A stretch of DNA of 64,000 nucleotides from positions 1 to 64,000 of the forward strand of contig JAJEAI010000143.1 of the NCBI GenBank assembly GCA_022824205.1, read 5' to 3'. This document shows positions 41,029 to 61,963 of this stretch, piece after piece (within the stretch, counting starts at the first letter, position 1; each line of letters opens with the position of its first letter). The position numbers were made by a program, and so were the translations under genes. A model generated the notes under the pieces. That model had not been told where the DNA came from. It did not search any database and saw only the letters and a program-made list of their open reading frames with translations. The DNA is from Candidatus Binatia bacterium. Its GTDB lineage: Bacteria > Desulfobacterota > Binatia > UBA9968 > JAJDTQ01.

Positions 41029-43455
41029 TCAAAACGCGCCCGCGTCGTCCAGGCCGCGGATCTGCTCGTCCGTCATGCCCAGCAGGCCGCTCAGGACCGC
41101 GCGGGTGTCCTGGCCAAGTAGCGGAGCATGGCGGCGGATCTCTCCCGGCGTCTCCGAGAGCTTCGTCACGATTCCCGGCAGCGTGAGCCTGCCCTGGCGC
41201 GGATGCTCGTGCGCGACCACGGAGCCGCGGGCGCGCAGATGCGGGTCGTGGACCAGCGTGGTGCCGTCACACACCATGCCGGCGGTCACGCCGTGGGCCT
41301 GGAGGGTCTCCATGGCCTCCCGCGCGGTGCGTTGCCGGGTCCACTCGGAAACGATCTCGTTCACGGCTTCGGCGTGGGCCAGACGCGATGCCGCCGTACC
41401 GAAGCGGTCGTCTCGCGCCGCCGCACGGTGTCCCGTGGCCTCACAAAAATGTCGCCACTCTTCATCGTCGGCCACGGTGACCGCGCACCACGCGTCCTCG
41501 CCCCGGCAGGGGTAGCAGCCGTGGGGCGCTGCCGCGCGGCCCCGGTTTCCCATGGGTTCCGCGGCGCGCCCGTTGACCAGGGCGTCCAGCAACGCGGGGC
41601 CGATGAGCGACGCGGTGACCTCCCCCTGGGCGATGTCGATGAGCTGTCCCTCGCCGGTGTTGGCGCGGTGGTGCAGCGCCGCCATGAGCACGAAGGCCAT
41701 GTGAATCGACACGATGTAATCGGGGTAGGAGGTCTGCGATCCCACCGGCGCGCCGCCGTCCGGATGATTCCACAGCCACGTCATGCCGGAGAACGGCATC
41801 AGGCTGGGTCCCCAGGTCACGTAGTTCTTCCGCGGTCCGGTGGTGCCGAGTCCCTGCAGCCGGATCATGATGATGTCGGGCTTGAACGCCCGGAGATCCT
41901 CGTAGCCAAGGCCCAGGCGGCCCATCACTCCGACGCTGAAGTTCTCCACGACCACGTCGCTCCGGGCGATGATGCGGCGCGCCACCTCCCTGCCCTCTTC
42001 GGTCTTGAGGTTGGCGGTCACCGACAGCTTGTTGCGGTTGTGGTCGGCGAAGGGAAGCGACGCCTCCACGTCCTTGTTGCCCTCGCGGATGCGCCAAGTG
42101 TCGGGCCGCGCCCGCGACTCGATCTTGATGACCTCGGCGCCGAAACAGGCGAGCTGCATGGTGCCGTAGGGGCCCGCGACCATGTGGGTGAAGTCCGCGA
42201 CGCGGATGCCAGCCAATGGCGGCGAACCAACCGGCGATGCCGGGGCCATGGCCACACTCCCCGGTCTATCCCTTCGCGAATCGTCAGGCACCGGCCCCTC
42301 TCCGCCGAGCAGTTCCCGGTCATGCTCCCCTACCGCCGGCGCATGGTGCCGGAAGCGCCAGCAGTCCGTCTTGTAGGCCCGACCGGGAAACTCCATAGCG
42401 CCGAGCCGCGGGTGTACGGTGTCGATGACGAAGCCGCGGGAGCGGATGTGCGGGTCGTGTACGAAGTCCAGCGGCGTGTTCACCGGGGCGCACGGGACGT
42501 GGCGCGCCTGGAGTTCTTCGTAGACCTCTTCCTTGGGCAGCAGCGCCAGGATCCCGGACACGACACGGTCCACTTCGGCCACGTGCGCGCGCCGGTAGAC
42601 GGGGTCCCCGAACTCCTCGCGCGCCAGCGCCTCCGGGTGGCCGAGCCAGTCCACGAAGCGGCCCCACGCCCCCGGCTGCGAATTGGTGACGAAGATGTGT
42701 ACGAAGCCGTCGGCGCAACGGTAGATGGTGCCGGGCGTGGCGAAGCGGTGCTGTGTGCCGTCCCGGCGCGGGTGCGCGCCCGTGGAGGCGGAACGCGACA
42801 CCAGGTTCTCCATGGCCGCCAGGCAGTCCATCATCGACACGTCGACATGCTGTCCCGGACCGCCCCGGCGGACATGCCACAGTGCCACGAGGATTGTCAG
42901 GGCGGCGTGGGCCGAGCCCACCAGGAACGCCTGCGCGCCCGGCGCGTTCACCGGCGGGGCCGACGGCTTGCCGCTCACGTACATGAGCCCGCCCATGGCG
43001 AACGCCGTGAGTCCGGACCAACGGTACCGGCTGTAGGGGCCGACCTGGCCGAAGGCGGTGACCGACGCGTAGACCAGCCCCGGGTTGAGCGCGCGCAGGT
43101 CCGCGTACCCCAACCCCATGGCGGGAAGGGTTCCGGGCGTGGCGCTCTCCACCACCGCATCCGCCGTGCGCGCCAGGCGCCGCACCCGCTCCCGCCCCGT
43201 CTCGGTGTCCAGGTCCGCGGTCACGCTCTTCTTGTTGGCGTTGAAGTAAAGGAAGGGAAGGCTTCGGTCCGGTCCCGGTCGGTCCTCCGCGAACGGCGGC
43301 TCATCCCGCGAAGGGCTGCCGCCGGGCGGCTCCACCTTGATGACCTCGGCGCCGAAGTCCGCCAGCAGCTTGCCGCAGTACTCGCCCTCGGCGCCCGCCA
43401 GCTCCAGGACCCTCACGCCGTCCAGCGCCTGTGATGTGCTTAGCGTCTGTGCCAT
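41029..43455 (-). CDS. Tandem-domain CaiB/BaiF class III CoA-transferase
   Basis: 808 residues, twice the normal size: two complete CaiB/BaiF domains (about 1-390 and 405-805) joined by a short linker. Each begins with the family start (LDGVRVLELAGAEGEYCGKLLADFG; LAGIRVADFTHMVAGPYG). Domain 1 has F177 where the catalytic Asp is expected; domain 2 keeps it as D579 in SYPDYIV. So only the second half should form the aspartyl-CoA intermediate. Separate genes equivalent to the two halves lie at 59601-60797 and 58387-59601. Substrate unknown. The gene stands 123 bases upstream of the TMTC-like gene's GTG-side region on the same strand. Confidence 0.88.
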   Translation of the reverse strand: MAQTLSTSQALDGVRVLELAGAEGEYCGKLLADFGAEVIKVEPPGGSPSRDEPPFAEDRPGPDRSLPFLYFNANKKSVTADLDTETGRERVRRLARTADAVVESATPGTLPAMGLGYADLRALNPGLVYASVTAFGQVGPYSRYRWSGLTAFAMGGLMYVSGKPSAPPVNAPGAQAFLVGSAHAALTILVALWHVRRGGPGQHVDVSMMDCLAAMENLVSRSASTGAHPRRDGTQHRFATPGTIYRCADGFVHIFVTNSQPGAWGRFVDWLGHPEALAREEFGDPVYRRAHVAEVDRVVSGILALLPKEEVYEELQARHVPCAPVNTPLDFVHDPHIRSRGFVIDTVHPRLGAMEFPGRAYKTDCWRFRHHAPAVGEHDRELLGGEGPVPDDSRRDRPGSVAMAPASPVGSPPLAGIRVADFTHMVAGPYGTMQLACFGAEVIKIESRARPDTWRIREGNKDVEASLPFADHNRNKLSVTANLKTEEGREVARRIIARSDVVVENFSVGVMGRLGLGYEDLRAFKPDIIMIRLQGLGTTGPRKNYVTWGPSLMPFSGMTWLWNHPDGGAPVGSQTSYPDYIVSIHMAFVLMAALHHRANTGEGQLIDIAQGEVTASLIGPALLDALVNGRAAEPMGNRGRAAAPHGCYPCRGEDAWCAVTVADDEEWRHFCEATGHRAAARDDRFGTAASRLAHAEAVNEIVSEWTRQRTAREAMETLQAHGVTAGMVCDGTTLVHDPHLRARGSVVAHEHPRQGRLTLPGIVTKLSETPGEIRRHAPLLGQDTRAVLSGLLGMTDEQIRGLDDAGAF

Positions 43456-44867: not shown

Positions 44868-46007
44868 TCAGATGGCCTTGGCCCTGCGCAACTCACGGAT
44901 CTCCGCGGTCGCGTACCCCAACTCCTTGAGCACCGCGGCGGTGTGTTGGCCCACGCGGCAGGTCTTTCCCCCGGGGCCGCGCGCGCCCGCGAACCAGAAC
45001 GGCGGCGTGAACTTCACCGTACCGGCGTCCTTCCGCCGTGCCAGCGTCTTGCGGAAACGCACGTGCGGGTCTTCCATGACCTCCTCGGGTTCGTACACCG
45101 GTGCCACGGACAGGCCGTAGTCGTTTCGGAGCAGCGCGACCCAGTCGTCCCGCGGACGAGTCTTGAAGACGCGGCGCATGGCCGCCTTGATGCGTGGCGT
45201 CTTGTCCGGGTCGAAAGCCGCGCCGGCGTACCGATCCAGCCCCAAGGCCTTGCACAGGAGCCCCCACTGCTTGGGCCCCAGGGCCGCCAGCGACACGAAT
45301 CCGCCGTCCGCCGCCTCGTAGGTATCGTAGCAGGCGGCCGTGCCGGCCAGGGTGGCGTGCTCGCGCTTGACCTCCGGACTCGACCTGCGCGGCGGCGGAT
45401 CGAGCATCAGGTACCGCGCCACCAGGAGCAGGGTCCAGTCGAACATGGAGATGTCGATGTAGCGCCCCTCTCCTTCCCGCAGCACGGCTATGTAGGCGGC
45501 GAGGATGGCGGTCAGGGCCGGGTAGCCGCCGCCGGCCACGTCCGCCACCTGGGCCGCCGGAGGCAGCGGCCGCCGGCCGGCCTCCCGCCCGATGGCGAGC
45601 ATCCCGCTCAACGCCAGGAAATTGATGTCGTGGGCCGAGTACGCCACCGACGGGCCGTTCTGGCCGAAGCTGGAGATGGAGCAATAGACGAGCCTGGGGT
45701 TCAGCTCCCGGAAGGTGTCGTAGTCCACCCGGAGCCGGCGCGCGACCCCGGGCCTGAACCCCTCCACGACGATGTCCGACCGCTTGGCCAGGGAATGAAC
45801 GATCTCGCGCCCGGCGTCGGTCTTGAGGTTGAGCGCGATGCTCCGCTTGCCCTGGTTGAGGTAGGGCGCGCCCGAACGCACGGCGCCGGGCTCCTCGACC
45901 TTGAGAATCTCGGCGCCCAGGCCCGCCAGGAGCCACGTGCACAGCGTGCCGGGGTACATGTGGCTCAGGTCGAGGACCTTGACGCCGTCGAGGATCGGTT
46001 TGGACAT
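44868..46007 (-). CDS. CaiB/BaiF class III CoA-transferase
   Basis: 379 residues, a normal single-domain family member. N-terminal ILDGVKVLDLSHMYPGTLCTWLLAGLGAEILKVEEP binds CoA; LNLKTDAGREIVHSLAKRSDIVVEGFRPG follows; the catalytic Asp is D156 in AQVADVAGGGYPAL. It therefore should be active by itself as a homodimer, unlike the partner-type genes elsewhere in the window. AAGGAGG precedes the start at 46007. It is transcribed toward citrate synthase with a 167-base gap. Substrate unknown; carnitine, formyl or aryl-acyl CoA transfers are known in the family. Confidence 0.92.
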   Translation of the reverse strand: MSKPILDGVKVLDLSHMYPGTLCTWLLAGLGAEILKVEEPGAVRSGAPYLNQGKRSIALNLKTDAGREIVHSLAKRSDIVVEGFRPGVARRLRVDYDTFRELNPRLVYCSISSFGQNGPSVAYSAHDINFLALSGMLAIGREAGRRPLPPAAQVADVAGGGYPALTAILAAYIAVLREGEGRYIDISMFDWTLLLVARYLMLDPPPRRSSPEVKREHATLAGTAACYDTYEAADGGFVSLAALGPKQWGLLCKALGLDRYAGAAFDPDKTPRIKAAMRRVFKTRPRDDWVALLRNDYGLSVAPVYEPEEVMEDPHVRFRKTLARRKDAGTVKFTPPFWFAGARGPGGKTCRVGQHTAAVLKELGYATAEIRELRRAKAI

Positions 46008-46403: not shown

Positions 46404-47444
46404 ATGGATCGACGTGTGGCATGGATCGGGGTTATCGTGGCGGTGCTGCTGGCGTGCGCGAGCGCGGCCGCGGCCCAGTCGTTCTACGAAAAAAAGACCG
46501 TCAGGATCGTTTCGGTGCACGCGCCGGGCGGTGGCTACGACACCTACTCCCGCCTCTTCGGGCGTCACTTCGGCAAGCACATCCCGGGCAAGCCCAAGGT
46601 GATCGTCGTCAACATACCGGGCGCGAGCGGCCTCATCGGCACCAACTACGTGTACAACGTGAGCAAGAAGGACGGCCTGACCGTCATCCAACCGAGCTGG
46701 GGCGTGGCCCAGGCGCAGTTCCTGGGGTTCCCCGACATCAGGTACGACGTCACCAAAATGATATGGCTGGGCCTTGCCAACAGCGGCCCCGTCACCGCGG
46801 TGGTGAGAAAGGAATCCCCGATTCAGACCATGGACCAGTGGCTCGATCCCAAGACCAAGCCGCTGATCTTCGGTTGCACGTCGCTCAACAGCCTCACCTG
46901 CAGCATCCCGCTGGCCATGAACAACATCTTCGGCAAGACCTCCGAGATCGTCTCCGGCTACGTGGGGACGGCACGCATTCGCGCCGCGCTGTTGCAGAAG
47001 GAAGTGGACGGGCTGACCGGATGGAGCTGGGACTCGGTGAAATCCACCGGCATGTCGATGATCGACGACGGCGACGCCAAGATCATGGCGTACATCGGAT
47101 TCGACCGGCACGCGGAGTTGGACGAGCGCAAGGTGCCGTTCCTGAACGAGAGGATCACGAAGCCCTCGGACATCGCCTTCATGAAGGTGCTGCTGCTGCC
47201 GGCGGCCATGCTGCGGCCGTGGGCCGTGCCGCCGGGGACGCCGGCCGACCGGGTGGAGATGCTGCGGAAGGCGTTCGAAGCAACGCTGAAGGACCCCGCG
47301 TTCCTCGCGGACGCCAAGCGGACCCGTTTGGACATCAACCCCAAGAGCGGAAAGTGGCTGACGGACCTCATCGCCAACATGAAGACGCAGATGACTCCGG
47401 AGGTGCTGAGCCGCGCCCGGAAGATCGTCGGCCTGGAGAAGTAG
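46404..47444 (+). CDS. TTT-family periplasmic binding protein, paralogue A
   Basis: 346 residues with a signal peptide ending near ASAAAAQ (about residue 25). Bug-family hallmarks: SVHAPGGGYDTYSRLFGRHFGKHIPG and VNIPGASGLIGTNYVYN, then VPPGTPADRVEMLRKAF. A Cys pair (FGCTSLNSLTCSIP) could form a disulfide next to the ligand cleft. The next gene is a close paralogue, with most positions identical by eye along the full length, so they arose by tandem duplication. No membrane subunits are adjacent. GGAG precedes ATG 46404. Confidence 0.87.
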   Translation: MDRRVAWIGVIVAVLLACASAAAAQSFYEKKTVRIVSVHAPGGGYDTYSRLFGRHFGKHIPGKPKVIVVNIPGASGLIGTNYVYNVSKKDGLTVIQPSWGVAQAQFLGFPDIRYDVTKMIWLGLANSGPVTAVVRKESPIQTMDQWLDPKTKPLIFGCTSLNSLTCSIPLAMNNIFGKTSEIVSGYVGTARIRAALLQKEVDGLTGWSWDSVKSTGMSMIDDGDAKIMAYIGFDRHAELDERKVPFLNERITKPSDIAFMKVLLLPAAMLRPWAVPPGTPADRVEMLRKAFEATLKDPAFLADAKRTRLDINPKSGKWLTDLIANMKTQMTPEVLSRARKIVGLEK

Positions 47445-47496
47445 CGGCGTAATCGGCCGGCAGCGGCCATCGGCTTCAAGACAGGAGGTACACGGC

Positions 47497-48537
47497 ATGT
47501 TCGTGCGACGGATATTCTTAATCGGCCTCGTCACGCTGCTCATGGCGGCGGGCGGCACCGCCGGTGCGGCGTCCTTCTACGAGGGCAAAACAGTCAAGAT
47601 CATCTCGGTGAGCTCCCCGGGGGGCGGTTACGATACCTACTCGCGGCTGTTCGCGCGCCACCTCGGGAAGCACATCCCGGGCAATCCCAACGTCATCGTC
47701 GTCAACATACCCGGCGGCAGCGGACTCATCGGCAGCAACTACGTGTACAACATCACCAAGCGGGACGGCCTTGCCCTGGTCCATCCCACCTGGACCGTGG
47801 CGCAGGCGCAGTTTCTGAAGTTTCCGGGGATCCGGTACGACGTCAATCAGTTCATCTGGCTGGGACTGGCCAACACCAGCCCCATCACGGTGGCGGTGCG
47901 CAAGGGCTCGCCCATCCAGAGCATGGACCAGTGGCTCGACACCAAGACCGAGCCGTTGATCTTCGGCTGCACCGCGCGCAACAGCCTGACCTGCAGCATC
48001 CCCCTGGCCATGAACGACATCTTCGGCAACACGTCCAAGATCGTCCCCGGCTACAAGGGGACGGCGCCGGTGCGCGCGGGGCTGTTGCAGAAAGAGGTGG
48101 ACGCCCTCACCGGATGGACCTGGGACTCGGTGAAGTCCACCGGCATGTCCATGCTCCAGGAGGGCTCCATCAAGCTCATCACGTACCTCAGCGAGGAACG
48201 TCACGCCGAGTTGGAGGCGCGCAACGTGCCGCTGCTGAACGACAGGATCACCAAGCCCGCGGACGTGGCCTTCATGAAGGTCCTGCTCCTGCCGGCCGCC
48301 ATGGTGCGCCCCTGGGCGTTGCCGCCCAAGACCCCGATGGACAGGGTGGCCATCCTGCGCAAGGCCTTCGACGCCATCCTGAAGGACCCCGAATTCCTGG
48401 CGGACGCCAAGCGGGCACGGCTCGACATCAACCCCAGGAGCGGCGAGTACCTCACGGGCCTCATCAGCGACATGAAGAAGCAGATGACGCCGGAAGTGGT
48501 GAGCCGCGCGCGCAGGATCGTCGGCCTGGACAAGTAG
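47497..48537 (+). CDS. TTT-family periplasmic binding protein, paralogue B
   Basis: 346 residues, same length and layout as the preceding protein: signal peptide to about GGTAGAAS, SVSSPGGGYDTYSRLFARHLGKHIPG, VNIPGGSGLIGSNYVYN, and the same Cys pair in FGCTARNSLTCSIP. Differences cluster in loops (for example THSW versus TW segments in HPTWTVAQAQFLKF), which suggests the two bind related but distinct ligands. AGGAGG is seven bases upstream of ATG 47497. The gap to its twin is 52 bases and to the thiolase gene 81 bases, so one operon of four or five genes is likely. Confidence 0.87.
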   Translation: MFVRRIFLIGLVTLLMAAGGTAGAASFYEGKTVKIISVSSPGGGYDTYSRLFARHLGKHIPGNPNVIVVNIPGGSGLIGSNYVYNITKRDGLALVHPTWTVAQAQFLKFPGIRYDVNQFIWLGLANTSPITVAVRKGSPIQSMDQWLDTKTEPLIFGCTARNSLTCSIPLAMNDIFGNTSKIVPGYKGTAPVRAGLLQKEVDALTGWTWDSVKSTGMSMLQEGSIKLITYLSEERHAELEARNVPLLNDRITKPADVAFMKVLLLPAAMVRPWALPPKTPMDRVAILRKAFDAILKDPEFLADAKRARLDINPRSGEYLTGLISDMKKQMTPEVVSRARRIVGLDK

Positions 48538-48618: not shown

Positions 48619-49773
48619 ATGTCGAACATCTCGGGGAAGTACGCCGTCGTAGGCGTGGGCGAGACCCAGGTGGGCAAGCGGCCCGAAGCCACCACCAACT
48701 CGCTGCACATCGAAGCCATCCGCCTGTGCCTGGAGGACGCCGGGGTTGACGCGTCCGAGGTGGACGGGCTCCTGACCAACCAGCCGCTCACCGACGCGCA
48801 CCGGAGCTACGCGGTGCGGCTGGCGCACATGGCGGGCATCGACCCCAGCTACGCCACCGATCTGGCCCTCGGGGGCGCCACGCCCATCGCCATGATCCAG
48901 AACGCGGTGATGGCCATCGAGGCGGGCATGGCCAACTACGTGGTGTGCGTGCACGCGCGCAAGCGGGCGACGCCGGACCCCACCCCGGGCTATCCCATCC
49001 GCAGCGGCGACGAGCACTGGGAGCAGCCCTGGGGCCATTTCTCGGCGGTGGCCAACCACGCGTTCGCGGCCACGCGCCACATGCACGAGTTCGGCACCAC
49101 CAGCGAGGACCTGGGCCAGATCGCGGTGTCCACACGCAAGCACGCGTGCATGAACAAGAACGCCACCATGCAGAAGCCCATGTCCATCGAGGACCACCAG
49201 AACTCGCGTCTGATCGTCGAGCCGCTGCACCTGTTCGACTGCTCGCTGGAATCGGACGGCGGCGCGGCGCTGCTGGTGACCAGCATGGAACGCGCCCGTG
49301 ACCTGCCCAGGAAGCCCGTGCAGGTCCTGGGCATGGGGCAACACCACCCGCACTCCAGCGTCATGGACGCGCCCACCCTCACCACCCTGGGGAGCCGCAA
49401 GTCATCCGAGGCGGCCTACCACATGGCCGGGCTCGGCCCCAAGGACATGGACTTCGCGCAGTTCTACGACTGCTTCACCATCACCACGCTGATCACCATC
49501 GAGGACTACGGCTTCTGCGGCAAGGGCGAGGGCAAGGACTTCATCAAGGACGGCCGCATCGAGGTGGGCGGCGACATCCCGGTGAACACCCACGGCGGTC
49601 TGCTGTCGCAGGCCCATCTCGAAGGCATCATGCACGTCACCGAGGGCGTCAAGCAGTTGCGCGGCAACGCGGTGGAGCCGGAGCGCCAGGTGCAGGGCGC
49701 GAAGGCGGGGGTCATCAGCGGCCACGGCGGCAGCCTGTGCATGCACGCGTCACTCGTACTGGGGGTACAATGA
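48619..49773 (+). CDS. Thiolase-like (SCP-x/lipid-transfer type) protein without the usual Cys
   Basis: 384 residues of the non-classical thiolase group often annotated as acetyl-CoA acetyltransferase or lipid-transfer protein. It has the N-terminal YAVVGVGETQVGKRP and C-terminal ISGHGGSLCMHASLVLG with the GHG histidine region. Where classical thiolases have the acyl-accepting Cys, this one reads DLALGGATPIAMIQNAV, so normal acyl transfer seems impaired. A middle segment (DFAQFYDCFTITTLITIEDYGFC) is conserved in the family. AAGGAGG precedes ATG 48619. The stop overlaps the DUF35 start (ATGA), the standard pairing for these proteins. Confidence 0.85.
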   Translation: MSNISGKYAVVGVGETQVGKRPEATTNSLHIEAIRLCLEDAGVDASEVDGLLTNQPLTDAHRSYAVRLAHMAGIDPSYATDLALGGATPIAMIQNAVMAIEAGMANYVVCVHARKRATPDPTPGYPIRSGDEHWEQPWGHFSAVANHAFAATRHMHEFGTTSEDLGQIAVSTRKHACMNKNATMQKPMSIEDHQNSRLIVEPLHLFDCSLESDGGAALLVTSMERARDLPRKPVQVLGMGQHHPHSSVMDAPTLTTLGSRKSSEAAYHMAGLGPKDMDFAQFYDCFTITTLITIEDYGFCGKGEGKDFIKDGRIEVGGDIPVNTHGGLLSQAHLEGIMHVTEGVKQLRGNAVEPERQVQGAKAGVISGHGGSLCMHASLVLGVQ

Positions 49774-50213
49774 GCAAGCCAGAGGCACACGACAAACGCG
49801 GGCGCGCGGCGCCGCGCAACGAACCGTTCCTGGCGGAGGTGGAAGCCCAGCCCTTCTGGGACAACCTCAAGGAACACAAGCTGACGGTACAGCGCTGCAA
49901 CGTCTGTGGGAGCTACTTCAACTTCCCGCCCCAGGCCATGTGCGCCAAGTGCCTGTCGTCGGACAACGAGTGGGTGCCGGTGAGCGGCAAGGGCACCGTC
50001 TACTCCTTCGTCACCTATCACCGGGCATGGCATCCGGCCTACCAGGACCAGATCCCGTACAACGTCTCGCTGGTGGACCTCGACGAAGGACCGCGGCTCG
50101 TGAGCAACGTCATCGACATCCCGCCGGAGGACGTGAAGGTGGGGATGGCGGTGGAGGTAGTGTTCGAGGACCACGAAGGGTACACGCTGCCGAAGTTCAA
50201 GCCGAGCGGGTAG
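49770..50213 (+). CDS. Zn-ribbon OB-fold protein (DUF35), thiolase partner
   Basis: 147 residues. A rubredoxin-like zinc ribbon with Cys pairs C43/C46 and C58/C61 (CNVC and CAKC) is followed by an OB fold (VYSFVTYHRAWHPAYQ, PYNVSLVDLDEG, VGMAVEVVFED). DUF35 proteins act as acyl-CoA-binding subunits of thiolase or HMG-CoA synthase complexes. Here the ATGA overlap with the upstream gene makes complex formation with the thiolase-like protein very likely. An in-frame ATG at 49737 inside the thiolase gene is less suitable. Confidence 0.9.
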   Translation: MSKPEAHDKRGRAAPRNEPFLAEVEAQPFWDNLKEHKLTVQRCNVCGSYFNFPPQAMCAKCLSSDNEWVPVSGKGTVYSFVTYHRAWHPAYQDQIPYNVSLVDLDEGPRLVSNVIDIPPEDVKVGMAVEVVFEDHEGYTLPKFKPSG

Positions 50214-54889: not shown

Positions 54890-56284
54890 ATGACCGAACT
54901 GGACAGCGTCACGTCGTCGACCGAGACCGAATACCTCGAGTGGCACCTGCGCCACTACGAGGACATGCCCCGGGAGGTCATCCTCAAGATGGACCTGCTG
55001 CGGGTGGGCCACTGGTTCACCGACGCCGCCCTGGAGCTGGCTTCCGACGCCCTGGTCAAGTCCTACCGGCTGTTTTCCTACGATCTCATGTCCATGAAGG
55101 ACATGAAGCGAAAGGAGCACCGCCGCACGCCCGAGTGGTTCGCCATCCGCGGCGGCCACCTGGGCCTCCGCCCGGTCATCGTCCAGACGACCCTGAGCCC
55201 CGATTCGCCCTACGTCATCGACATGGTCGACGGCGCGTGCAAGCTCCTGCTGGACGGGCGCGAGCTCTGTGACGTGAGCTTCCCCAAGCCGCTCAAGTAC
55301 TACACGCGGTCTTTCGAGGACGGCACCAAGTACCACGAGATCATCGCCTTCGGCTACTTCGCCACCGTGTTCCGCAACTGCCAGTACTGGGGACCGGACG
55401 AAGAGTGCCGCTTCTGCGACATCAACGTCAACGTGCGCCAGATGAAGGAGTCACGGGACTTCACCTTCAACACGCCGGTGAAGCCCGTAGCCTACGTGGC
55501 CGAGGTGGCCCGCTCCATCGAACAGGACGCCATAGACGAGGTGGGCTACGCTCCGCCCATCGACTTCCTGATCTCCGGCGGCACCATCCTCAAGACCCTG
55601 CACCGCAAGTCGGAGGACGACTTCTACCTGGAGTACGCCTCGGCGCTCAAGTGGGGCGGCCACCGCCGTTACGTCAACATCCAGACCAACGCCAAGGACA
55701 AGGAGACCATGAAGCGTTACCGCGCCGAGGGCGTCGACTGCCACCACGCCAACATGGAGGTGTGGGACAGGCGGCTGTTCGAGTGGATCAATCCGGGCAA
55801 GAACCGCCGCATCGGCTGGGACAACTGGGTCAAGTGGATGATCGAGTCGGTGGAGGTCCTGGGCGAGGGCAACGCCCGTCCCAACTTCGTCTGCGGCGTG
55901 GAACTGGCCCGCCCCCACGGTTTCGACAACATCCCCGACGCCGTCAACTCCACCGGCGGCGGCATCGACTTCATGATGCGCCACGGCATCTTCCCGCGCT
56001 TCAACCAGTGGCGCCGGGAGCCCGGCTCCGACCTCGTCTCCCAGCACGAGCAGCCCGCCATCCCCCTGGAGTTCTACATCCAGATCATGCGCCGCTACTA
56101 CGAGAGCTGGAAGAAGTACCGCCTCCCCTTCCCCCACCACGACTCCGTCCACCCCGAGCGCCGCTGGGGCTCCGGCCACGCCACCTACGACGACATGCTC
56201 TTCCTGAACGACTGGCCCGACTACGAAGAGGAGTGGGACCGGGGGTCGCGGGAGGGATTGAAGGCGTGCGTCGTCAGCGGTTAG
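54890..56284 (+). CDS. Radical SAM protein with non-canonical CX8CX2C cluster motif
   Basis: 464 residues. The putative [4Fe-4S] site is C164, C173, C176 in RNCQYWGPDEECRFCDIN: CX8CX2C instead of the common CX3CX2C. The aromatic residue before the last Cys (F) and the SAM-binding GGT-type motif (DFLISGGTILKTLH) support a radical SAM barrel. VNIQTNAKDKETMKRY and HHANMEVWDRRLF look like later barrel strands. A long N-terminal part (1-150) has no domain I recognise. Substrate unknown. CGGAG precedes ATG 54890. It may work with the amidohydrolase just upstream. Confidence 0.8.
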   Translation: MTELDSVTSSTETEYLEWHLRHYEDMPREVILKMDLLRVGHWFTDAALELASDALVKSYRLFSYDLMSMKDMKRKEHRRTPEWFAIRGGHLGLRPVIVQTTLSPDSPYVIDMVDGACKLLLDGRELCDVSFPKPLKYYTRSFEDGTKYHEIIAFGYFATVFRNCQYWGPDEECRFCDINVNVRQMKESRDFTFNTPVKPVAYVAEVARSIEQDAIDEVGYAPPIDFLISGGTILKTLHRKSEDDFYLEYASALKWGGHRRYVNIQTNAKDKETMKRYRAEGVDCHHANMEVWDRRLFEWINPGKNRRIGWDNWVKWMIESVEVLGEGNARPNFVCGVELARPHGFDNIPDAVNSTGGGIDFMMRHGIFPRFNQWRREPGSDLVSQHEQPAIPLEFYIQIMRRYYESWKKYRLPFPHHDSVHPERRWGSGHATYDDMLFLNDWPDYEEEWDRGSREGLKACVVSG

Positions 56285-58386: not shown

Positions 58387-59601
58387 CTACACCAGCACCC
58401 CCTCCCCTTTCCACTTGGCAATGGCGTCGTCGTCGTAGCCCAGAACGTCCCGCATGATCTGCTCGGTGTGCGCGCCCAGGTCCGGGGTGAGGGGAATGTC
58501 TTCCTCCGGCTGGTCCTTGAACAGGATGCCGCCGCGGGGGACCTCGAAGGGGCCGATGGGAGAGGCGTCGTAGTTCTGGAAGTAGTCGCGGTGGCGGAGC
58601 TGGGGGTCCTGGCACAGGTCGGTGCCGTTCTGCACCACCCCGGCGGCGACGCCGAGGGCCTGGAGCCGGTGGGCGACGTCCTCGACGGTCTGGGTGGCGA
58701 GCCACTCGGACATGACGGCGTCCAGCTCCTGTGAATTCCGCCGCCGCTCGATGCAGGTGGCGAAGCGGGGGTCGTGCGCCAACGCCTCGTTGCCCATGAC
58801 GCCGCACAGGCGCCGCCACTCCTCGTCGCTCGTGACCGACACCACGCACCAGCGCTCGTCTCCCTGGCAGCGGTAGCAGCCGTGGGGCGCGGCGGTGAGG
58901 CTCTGGTTCCCGCGGGGCTCGGGATCGACGCCGTTGATGGCGGACTCCAGGTAGCTCACGCCGAGCGTATAGGCGGTCACCTCCCCCTGGGACACGTCGA
59001 TGATGGAACCCTTGCCGGTGAGGCGCTGGCGCAGCAACGCGGCCATCATGATGGTGGGGCCGGAGATGAAGCCCAGGTGGTCGGGGTAGACGCCCTGGCT
59101 GCCGACGGGACGGTCCTGTCCGGGATGGTTCCAGAGATAGGTCATGCCGCTGAAGGCGTTCAGGTTGAAGCCCCATGTGCCGTACCAGTTCTTGGGGCCG
59201 GTCTCCCCCAGTCCCGGCAGCTTCAGGATGATGATGGAGGGGTTCGCCTTCCTCAGCTCGTCGTCGCCGAGACCGAGCCGGCCCAGCACCTGTGGGCGGA
59301 AGTTCACCAGCACGGCGTTGGACTTGGCCGCCAGCTCCTTGATGATGCGCTTGCCGTCGTCGTGCTTGATGTTCACGGTCATGGAGCGAATGGCCAGGTT
59401 GCATTCGATGAAGCGCGGCGCGGCGTTGACGTTGTTGCCCTGGCCGTAGTGCCGGAAGGTGTCGAGCCCGCCGGGGTGGGACTCCACCTTGATGACCTCG
59501 GCGCCGTACTGCGCCAGCAGCCGGGCCGCGTAGGGGCCGGCGTACCCCGTGGTGAAAGACACGATCCGGACGCCTTCGAGAATCCTGTTGGGGGTGGGCA
59601 T
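58387..59601 (-). CDS. CaiB/BaiF CoA-transferase, catalytic-type subunit
   Basis: 404 residues, full-length domain. CoA-binding start LEGVRIVSFTTGYAGPYAARLLAQYGAEVIKVE; catalytic Asp D174 in QGVYPDHLGF. Segments such as SGMTYLWNHPG, RPVGSQGVYPD and AAPHGCYRCQGDERWC are strongly similar to the second domain of the 808-residue fusion at 41-43.5 kb. It overlaps the stop of the Asp-less CoA-transferase by one base (TGATG), and both follow an acyl-CoA dehydrogenase. It probably forms the active half of a heterodimer. The acyl substrate is not known. Confidence 0.92.
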   Translation of the reverse strand: MPTPNRILEGVRIVSFTTGYAGPYAARLLAQYGAEVIKVESHPGGLDTFRHYGQGNNVNAAPRFIECNLAIRSMTVNIKHDDGKRIIKELAAKSNAVLVNFRPQVLGRLGLGDDELRKANPSIIILKLPGLGETGPKNWYGTWGFNLNAFSGMTYLWNHPGQDRPVGSQGVYPDHLGFISGPTIMMAALLRQRLTGKGSIIDVSQGEVTAYTLGVSYLESAINGVDPEPRGNQSLTAAPHGCYRCQGDERWCVVSVTSDEEWRRLCGVMGNEALAHDPRFATCIERRRNSQELDAVMSEWLATQTVEDVAHRLQALGVAAGVVQNGTDLCQDPQLRHRDYFQNYDASPIGPFEVPRGGILFKDQPEEDIPLTPDLGAHTEQIMRDVLGYDDDAIAKWKGEGVLV

Positions 59602-60797
59602 CAGATGACTCCCTCCGCCGCCAGCACGCCGAGGTCGGCCTCGCTCAAACCGAGATCACCGCCCAGGATCTCCCCGTTGTGCTGGCCCAGCATGGGCGCG
59701 GGCCGGGGGCCGCGGCGCTCGCCGTCCAGCAGGAACGGCACGCCCGGCTGCGGGAATTCGCCCAGCACGGGGTGCGACACCGTGCCGAAGAAGCCGCGCT
59801 CGACGATGTGCGGGTCCTCCATGAAGTCCCGCGGCGTGTTCACCGGCAACGCCGGCAGCCCGTGCTTCTGGAGCAGCACGGACAGCTCCTCCTTGCCGAA
59901 CCGCGAGGTGAACGACGCCACCATGGGGTTCAGCCAGTCCGCGGCCGCCCGGCGCTTGCCGTTGTCCAGCAACTCGGGGTCGTCCAGCTCCGCCGGGTGT
60001 CCCTCCCACATGTCCAGGAAGATGGGCCAGTGGCGCTGGGTGGCGAAGAACGAGATCCAGCCATCCTTGCACGGGAACAGGTTGGCCGGGGCCACGTGCT
60101 GGTGCTGGCTGCCGGCGCGCTTCATGAGACGGCCCTCGGACGACCAGGTGAAGGCCACGTGCTCGTGGAGCGCCATGCTCGCCTGCACCGAGGCGTCGAT
60201 GTGAGCGCCCAGCCCCTTGTCCTCGCGTTGCCACAGCGCCAGCAGGGTGCCGAAGGCGGAGTAGATGCTGGTATAGACATAGGACTGGCCGCCCGGGGGA
60301 ACGCACGGCGTCAGGCTGGGGTCGCCGCTGATGAACAGCAGCCCGCCCATGGCATTGGTCACCAGGTCCGGCGCGCGGTAGTCGCGGTAGGGGCCGTCCT
60401 GGCCGAAGCCCGAGATGGACACGAGCACCAGCTTGGGGCGGCGTGCCACCATCTCGCCGTAGCCGATGCCAAGGTCGTCGAGGTAGCCGGGGTCGTGGCT
60501 GTCGATGACCACGTCGGCCTTCTCCACCAGGTCGAGCAGGAGTTTCCGGCCCGACCCGCGGGACAGGTCCAGGGTGATGCCGCGCTTGCCGGCGTTGAAG
60601 TAGGCGAACCGCAGGCTGCCCTCGCGGTTGCTGTGCCCCTTGGCAAACGGCGGCTCGGCGCGGAGGTCATCGCCCGACGGCGGCTCGACCTTGACCACGT
60701 CCATGCCGAGGTCGGCGAGCACCTTGCCGCAGAAGGCCCCCATGGCGGTGCCGAGGTCCAGCACCCGGAAGCCCGAAAGCAGCGCTTCTCCGCTCAT
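59601..60797 (-). CDS. CaiB/BaiF CoA-transferase homologue lacking the catalytic Asp
   Basis: 398 residues with the whole family fold (FRVLDLGTAMGAFCGKVLADLG at the start, VKVEPPSGDD, YFNAGKRGITLDL, ISGFGQDGPYRDYRAPDL). At the active-site position it has Y173 (GGQSYVYTSIY) where Asp is required. It resembles domain 1 of the 808-residue fusion, which has Phe there. It overlaps the acyl-CoA dehydrogenase stop (ATGA) and the next CoA-transferase start (TGATG), so equal synthesis with that active partner is expected. Most likely a structural or substrate-binding subunit. Confidence 0.9.
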   Translation of the reverse strand: MSGEALLSGFRVLDLGTAMGAFCGKVLADLGMDVVKVEPPSGDDLRAEPPFAKGHSNREGSLRFAYFNAGKRGITLDLSRGSGRKLLLDLVEKADVVIDSHDPGYLDDLGIGYGEMVARRPKLVLVSISGFGQDGPYRDYRAPDLVTNAMGGLLFISGDPSLTPCVPPGGQSYVYTSIYSAFGTLLALWQREDKGLGAHIDASVQASMALHEHVAFTWSSEGRLMKRAGSQHQHVAPANLFPCKDGWISFFATQRHWPIFLDMWEGHPAELDDPELLDNGKRRAAADWLNPMVASFTSRFGKEELSVLLQKHGLPALPVNTPRDFMEDPHIVERGFFGTVSHPVLGEFPQPGVPFLLDGERRGPRPAPMLGQHNGEILGGDLGLSEADLGVLAAEGVI

Positions 60798-61963
60798 TGG
60801 CCCTTGGCGCGGGCGCGCAGGAGGTTCTGGGCCATGCGCCAGCGCAGCACCTCGGTGGCGCCTTCGGTGATGCGGATGCTGCGCAACTGGCGGTACCACC
60901 ACTCCAGCGGCAGTTCCTTGGTGAGGCCGATGCCGCCGTGGACCTGGATGGAGCGGTCCACCACCCGGCTGGCCATCTCCGTGCACACGCACTTGACCAT
61001 GTAGGCCAGGTTGCGAACGTCCTCGCCGCGGTCGTGGCGCCAGGCGCATTCGTAGACCAGGTTGCGCGCCATGTGCAGTTCCATGACCGAGTCGGCGACC
61101 ATGAACTGGACGGCCTGCCGTTCCGACAGCGGCTGGCCGAAGGTGGTGCGGATCTGCGAGTAGTCCATCATCATGTCCAGGGCGCGTTCGGCGATGCCGA
61201 TACAGCGGGCGCCGTGGCCCTTGACGCGTCCCTCCTGGAGCCAACCCTGGGCCAGCCGGAAGCCCTGCCCCACCTCGCCCGCGACGTTGCCCACCGGCAC
61301 CCGGGCGTTCTCGAAGAGGATCTGGAACGGCGCGTCGCCCATCATGGTGGGCCAGCGGCGCTCGATGGTGACGCCCGGGGTGTCCATGTCCACCAGGAAG
61401 GTGGTGATGCCGCCGCGCGCGCGCTTCTCGGGATCGGTCACCGCCATGACCTGGGCGAAGTCGGAGAAGCCCGCGTTGCTGATGAACCGCTTGGTGCCGT
61501 TCAGCACCCAATGGTCGCCGTCCAGCACCGCCCGGGTCTTCATGCCCGCGGGATCGCCGCCCGCGTCGGGCTCGGTCTGGGCGAAGCACGCCGTCTTCTC
61601 GCCCCGGAGCACGGGGTAGAGGTAGCGCTCCTTCTGCTCGTCGTTGAGCTCGAACAGGATGCCGCGCGCCTCCGGCCCGAAGATCGGGTTGTTGCGGAAA
61701 GGGATGCAGTTGGTGCGGGAGACTTCTTCCTGGATCACGCAGCGCGTCAACAGGTCGAGCCCGGCGCCGCCGTACTCCTCGGGCACGTCCAGCATCCAGA
61801 ACCCCAGGGCCTTGGCCTTTTCCTGGAGCGGCTTGTACAGTTCCTCGGGCATCTCCTCGCCCTCGGGCACGAACTCCCGCTCCAGCGGGATCAGCTCCCG
61901 GTCCACGAAGTCGCGCATGGTCTTCTTGATGATCTTGATCTCTTCGGGAAGCTCGAAATCCAT
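60794..61963 (-). CDS. Acyl-CoA dehydrogenase
   Basis: 389 residues. FAD/substrate motif ACFAQTEPDAGGDPAGMKTRA, flavin-strand segment GTKRFISNAGFSDFAQVMAV, and C-terminal RSIQVHGGIGLTKELPLEWWYR with RITEGATEVLRWRMAQ, which holds the catalytic-base Glu region of this family. It should oxidise an acyl-CoA to the 2-enoyl-CoA, giving electrons to ETF. AAGGAGG is upstream of the start at 61963. It is the first gene of a tight three-gene operon with two CoA-transferases, so the transferases probably activate the acid that it oxidises. Confidence 0.93.
   Translation of the reverse strand: MDFELPEEIKIIKKTMRDFVDRELIPLEREFVPEGEEMPEELYKPLQEKAKALGFWMLDVPEEYGGAGLDLLTRCVIQEEVSRTNCIPFRNNPIFGPEARGILFELNDEQKERYLYPVLRGEKTACFAQTEPDAGGDPAGMKTRAVLDGDHWVLNGTKRFISNAGFSDFAQVMAVTDPEKRARGGITTFLVDMDTPGVTIERRWPTMMGDAPFQILFENARVPVGNVAGEVGQGFRLAQGWLQEGRVKGHGARCIGIAERALDMMMDYSQIRTTFGQPLSERQAVQFMVADSVMELHMARNLVYECAWRHDRGEDVRNLAYMVKCVCTEMASRVVDRSIQVHGGIGLTKELPLEWWYRQLRSIRITEGATEVLRWRMAQNLLRARAKGQ

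Follow-up and report, generated by a model that had tools for sequence, protein, structure and literature searches.

Frc, CaiB, YfdE and SUGCT are homodimeric family III CoA-transferases, each encoded by one gene and having two equal active sites. On a plasmid of Aromatoleum aromaticum EbN1, a pair of CaiB-family genes lies beside UbiD/UbiX, and we take this pair to be SptAB, the succinyl-CoA:phthalate CoA-transferase. In BbsEF, the succinyl-CoA:(R)-benzylsuccinate CoA-transferase (PDB 9fn0, 9fol and 9fun), the enzyme is built from two CaiB-family subunits, one with Tyr and the other with Asp at the catalytic position, and its product is oxidized by the acyl-CoA dehydrogenase BbsG (PMC10818641).

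Here we describe two adjacent CaiB/BaiF genes, P0001 and P0002, found in a stretch of 64,000 nucleotides from a Candidatus Binatia bacterium (hereafter, the window). Judging from sequence, we consider it highly likely that the two proteins form a single family III (Frc/CaiB) CoA-transferase, a heterodimer of the BbsEF type.

Gene arrangement and match to the solved BbsEF structure

The pair makes up the second and third genes of an ACAD-E-F operon, the members of which are as follows.

60794..61963, minus strand: ACAD (acyl-CoA dehydrogenase), gene 1 of the operon, kept upstream of E in the orthologs
59601..60797, minus strand: P0001, E-type (BbsE-like) CaiB/BaiF subunit of 398 aa with Tyr173; PDB match 9fn0_A
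58387..59601, minus strand: P0002, F-type (BbsF-like) CaiB/BaiF subunit of 404 aa with Asp174; PDB match 9fn0_B

As the earlier note on this DNA had it, the two CaiB/BaiF genes overlap by one base, the A at 59601 being shared by the TGA stop and the ATG start. The TGA of ACAD overlaps the ATG of P0001 as ATGA, and a ribosome-binding-like aaggaggag is located 5′ of the ACAD ATG. The two proteins are only 25% identical to each other, and in both cases the match to CoA_transf_3 (PF02515) spans the whole profile (308 bits and 300 bits for P0001 and P0002, respectively).

When compared with solved structures, P0001 gave 9fn0_A as the top match (E 8.6e-59) and P0002 gave 9fn0_B (E 8.8e-58). Tyr173 of P0001 aligned with Tyr171 of chain A, and Asp174 of P0002 with D178 of chain B; the PDB entry 9fol bears the title 'BbsEF, D178-CoA adduct'. 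The PDB text reads 'Subunit of Benzylsuccinate CoA-transferase', and the assignment of chain A to BbsE and chain B to BbsF was made here from the Tyr and Asp residues. The AlphaFold model of P0001 (pTM 0.69) showed the family III fold over the entire length, with 9fn0_A as the top Foldseek match (E 5e-33; VIA Z 33). BbsEF had been named earlier as the precedent for a two-gene enzyme of this class, and the solved structure (2025 PDB entries), with its Tyr and Asp chains, bears this out.

Conservation of the pair in related genomes

Orthologs were searched in 58 genomes of the genus and of wider relatives, the window's own included, with a cut-off of at least 60% identity for P0001. P0001 orthologs were found in 17 genomes besides that of the window, and in each of these the P0002 ortholog is the next gene downstream, in the same orientation; the E-then-F order was kept in 18/18 orthologous loci, one of which is on a contig that ends inside the F gene. 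ACAD precedes the pair in every orthologous locus with enough contig, and a gene for enoyl-CoA hydratase is found 5′ of ACAD in two other genera. The earlier note held that its reading would fall if the Asp-less gene were missing from most homologous loci; this objection fails, because the gene was found in all 18 orthologous loci.

Fusions, other pairs and census of CaiB domains

There are 24 PF02515 matches in the window's genome. Five pairs were recognized, and probably a sixth, divided between contigs 158 and 194. Three natural fusions, one in the window (41029-43455) and the others on contigs 111 and 105, combine an Asp-less front half with an Asp-bearing back half. The fusion in the window and a single-gene paralogue taken for comparison are as follows.

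41029..43455, minus strand: natural E+F-type fusion of 808 aa, paralogue of the pair, with Phe at the front column and Asp579 at the back
44868..46001, minus strand: single CaiB/BaiF paralogue outside the pair, with Asp at the column

In the tree, the front half of this fusion groups with the E lineage and the back half with the F lineage. The AlphaFold model of the natural fusion was of too low a quality (pTM 0.38) to reveal the interlocked dimer.

The pair loci were gathered using P0001 and P0002 as queries and are therefore biased to the lineages of these proteins. Only the census escapes this bias; it took in all 73 PF02515 domains of two near-complete single-contig genomes, regardless of how similar the domains are to the window proteins. 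In this census, 13 of the 15 Asp-less domains adjoin an Asp-bearing one, whereas 18 of the 58 Asp-bearing domains have any CaiB neighbor (Fisher, p = 2e-4).

Other arrangements of CaiB genes were also observed. A pair in reverse order, with the Asp-bearing gene first and approximately 650 bases between the domains, is present on contig 199 of the window's genome (G000:C199:2400-6400; L127), and the same order is found in genome G004. A lone CaiB paralogue with Ala at the Asp column is present at G000:C9:9334-10416 (L009) and likewise at G004:C1:4112663-4113823; it has no CaiB neighbor in G004 and groups with the single-gene paralogues, not with the BbsE lineage. On a plasmid of Rhodococcus rhodochrous (L208, 2504-4864), the front half of a fused double CaiB protein has the non-neutral residue Glu at the Asp column.

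Trees of the two subunits

A tree of 107 rows was made, including 46 Asp-less partners and the 46 Asp-bearing partners. All 46 Asp-less partners, BbsE among them, fell on one side of a branch with support of 98, and the 46 Asp-bearing partners, including BbsF, formed one group with the same support, which two same-genome pair members joined. The other single-gene paralogues fell outside both lineages. The mirror-tree correlation of the two subunits was 0.90 for the 46 pairs and 0.78 for the 23 deep pairs (0/2000 permutations). When plasmid-borne pairs of Proteobacteria and Actinobacteria were added, including the EbN1 pair beside UbiD/UbiX, the Asp-bearing partners were again one clade (support 99), and the E-types stayed together across a branch supported at 90. 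Within the lineages, BbsE was joined by a pair from Variovorax (85), and BbsF by pairs from Variovorax and Chelativorans (99); the window pair lay elsewhere.

The possibility that these groups are an artefact of the active-site columns was rejected, because the groups persisted in a tree rebuilt without these columns, with support of 81 for the E-types and 99 for the F-types; this is a robustness check, in which some rows had been grouped after the earlier tree was seen.

On balance, we favor the idea that the CaiB family gave rise to the inactive subunit a single time, at an early stage, and that the E/F pair then spread over several phyla, forming a second large branch of this family, with repeated fusion into double-domain proteins. 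Because the rooting of the tree is unsettled, a single origin of the E lineage is favored but not proven. Membership in the E lineage does not always mean the lack of Asp, because one protein of this lineage from another family (G050:C1:438037-439233), flanked by two Asp-bearing CaiB genes, has Asp as well as Asn at the catalytic columns. This protein is possibly a reversion or an early branch.

The two genes might instead encode separate homodimers, in which P0002 would be an ordinary CoA-transferase and P0001 would bind a CoA thioester or carry out some other reaction without Asp, for example a racemase-like one; this is difficult to reconcile with the strict pairing, the natural fusions and the mirrored trees. 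Such an arrangement gains some credit from the single-gene CaiB paralogues, which are common in the window's genome, and from the wider chemistry of family III, since 2-methylacyl-CoA racemase is among the matches. However, in the tree the E-types are separate from the single-gene paralogues, and they have lost CoA-binding positions besides the nucleophile (see below), and we regard separate homodimers as improbable. The pairing of an active with an inactive subunit, as put forward in the earlier note, is supported at the sequence level by the chain-wise match to BbsEF, the 18/18 loci, the natural fusions and the co-evolving lineages, and it is the reading that we adopt.

Residues at the catalytic column

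When the pair was aligned with CaiB-family proteins of solved structure and with the CaiB domains of the same genome, Y173 of P0001 and D174 of P0002 fell in one column; 4ed9, 10uh and BbsF have Asp there, and BbsE has Tyr. The catalytic Asp is present in P0002, where D174 occupies the column of BbsF D178, and absent from P0001; the placement of Y173 at the essential-Asp position and of D174 in the downstream protein, claimed before from the sequence of the two genes, agrees with this alignment. A nearby acid as a replacement for the lost Asp was ruled out, because no Asp or Glu is found within 13 residues of Y173 in P0001, the nearest being D159 and E192.

An alignment of the Asp column across homologues, which had been proposed as a check, gave the same division. 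In pairs sampled from related genomes, Asp was found at the column in 0/59 E-type partners versus 58/58 F-type partners, indicating that the loss of Asp in P0001 is no chance event. Asn100 is invariant in the F-types and is replaced by Ser or Thr in 45 of the 59 E-types; Pro23 is likewise invariant in the F-types and is missing from most E-types. The residue of mesaconyl-CoA transferase (Mct) equivalent to Asn100, as set by the common Asn-Phe motif, touches the CoA arm (PMC9813914). Because this CoA-binding Asn is mostly replaced too, the loss in the E-types exceeds the nucleophile alone.

Tyr is the commonest E-type residue at the column (43/59) and occurs in BbsE as well, which could be taken to mean that Tyr, or another residue of P0001, is a different nucleophile and that the two subunits are both catalytic but differ in their chemistry. 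Other E-types, however, have His, Cys, Phe, Gly, Met, Gln or Pro at the column, of which Phe, Gly and Pro are incapable of a nucleophilic role, and CoA-binding Asn100 is usually missing at the same time. Among the 18 orthologous P0001 proteins, the column is Tyr in 16, His in one and Cys in one, and the His variant is the closest relative (95% identical), which disfavors Tyr as a new nucleophile. We therefore reject Tyr as the replacement, and we consider a second kind of active site in P0001 very improbable.

Lack of a catalytic residue would also be expected if P0001 were a decaying duplicate kept by chance, but this is scarcely credible and was rejected, because the gene occurs in seven genera of the order, the frame is intact in all the complete copies, and the dN/dS within the genus (NG86; E, 0.09-0.15; F, 0.12-0.24) indicates purifying selection on both genes.

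Proposed reaction and substrate

In the proposed heterodimer of P0001 and P0002, the sole working active site would be supplied by P0002. According to the general family III mechanism (PMC9813914), Asp174 would attack the acyl-CoA donor to give an acyl-aspartyl anhydride, which would be converted through a beta-aspartyl-CoA thioester into another anhydride, this time with the acceptor acid, followed by release of the new CoA thioester. P0001, without the nucleophile and the CoA-binding Asn, would be retained in an obligate structural role, as one half of the interlocked dimer, and it probably shapes the acceptor/substrate pocket. The product would probably be passed to the co-operonic ACAD and then to an enoyl-CoA hydratase, a succession of steps that parallels BbsEF, BbsG and BbsH. 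Succinyl-CoA as the donor is a guess by analogy.

In the window's genome, which is 97% complete and in which control families were detected, no PFL-family glycyl-radical enzyme was matched, and for this reason benzylsuccinate made by benzylsuccinate synthase was rejected as the substrate. Since the pair also groups with neither BbsEF nor the presumed SptAB, the substrate cannot be guessed from orthology.

Other genes in the window

At 48619-50213 (+), a thiolase gene overlaps a ChsH2/DUF35 zinc-ribbon OB-fold gene. The top solved matches of the thiolase were 4u4e and lipid-transfer-protein-type enzymes, and the benzoylsuccinyl-CoA thiolase subunit was a weaker match. On a Variovorax plasmid (L202), a pair of thiolase and DUF35-type genes is located directly 3′ of an E/F pair. 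Two similar periplasmic-binding-like proteins, TctC-like by eye, are encoded back to back at 46421-48537 (+), the first of which had no Pfam-A match at 1e-5. The conserved 464-aa protein encoded at 54890-56284 (+), which has cysteines recalling the radical-SAM motif and is 97% identical in the relative L025, also had no Pfam-A match at 1e-5.

Comparison with known systems

Annotation labels both genes of the pair 'CoA transferase'. Recognition of the E/F pattern would spare half of them the label of an active enzyme and would point experimenters to co-expression of the pair. A pseudo-subunit lineage that tracks the active lineage, together with the fusions, would be a clean case of homodimers turning into obligate heterodimers. 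If the inactive subunit did arise once, one ancient obligate heterodimer would underlie BbsEF and the presumed SptAB as well as many unnamed 'CoA transferase' genes, among them the five pairs of the window's genome and probably the sixth. For specialists, the interest lies in the apparent single ancient origin and broad spread of the inactive-subunit lineage, which are supported but not proven.

The design of an active subunit with an Asp-less one is already known from BbsEF, and the paper on the BbsEF structure (PDB 9fn0/9fol) may already treat parts of the present subject, such as the inactive-subunit lineage. The earlier note expected both the substrate and the obligate pairing to be new; this holds for the substrate, but the pairing already exists in BbsEF and the presumed SptAB. 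BbsEF and the window pair, which are approximately 30% identical, both consist of two CaiB-family subunits with Tyr and Asp, and both are linked to an acyl-CoA dehydrogenase, which is BbsG in the case of BbsEF.

The genes of the presumed SptAB are, like those of the window pair, adjacent and overlapping and belong to the same E and F lineages; at the Asp column its first protein has Tyr and its second Asp, and at the Asn column the first has Ser and the second Asn. Unlike the window pair, it groups with another (L116-like) pair type of this genus, and it is accompanied by a decarboxylase instead of an acyl-CoA dehydrogenase. SmtAB and the fused double CaiB proteins of the DddD type have two CaiB units per enzyme, as do the fusions of the window's genome. 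The homodimeric family III enzymes share with P0002 the fold, the catalytic Asp and the CoA-binding Asn. Taken with these systems, the window pair is very probably a heterodimer of the BbsEF/SptAB type with one active site.
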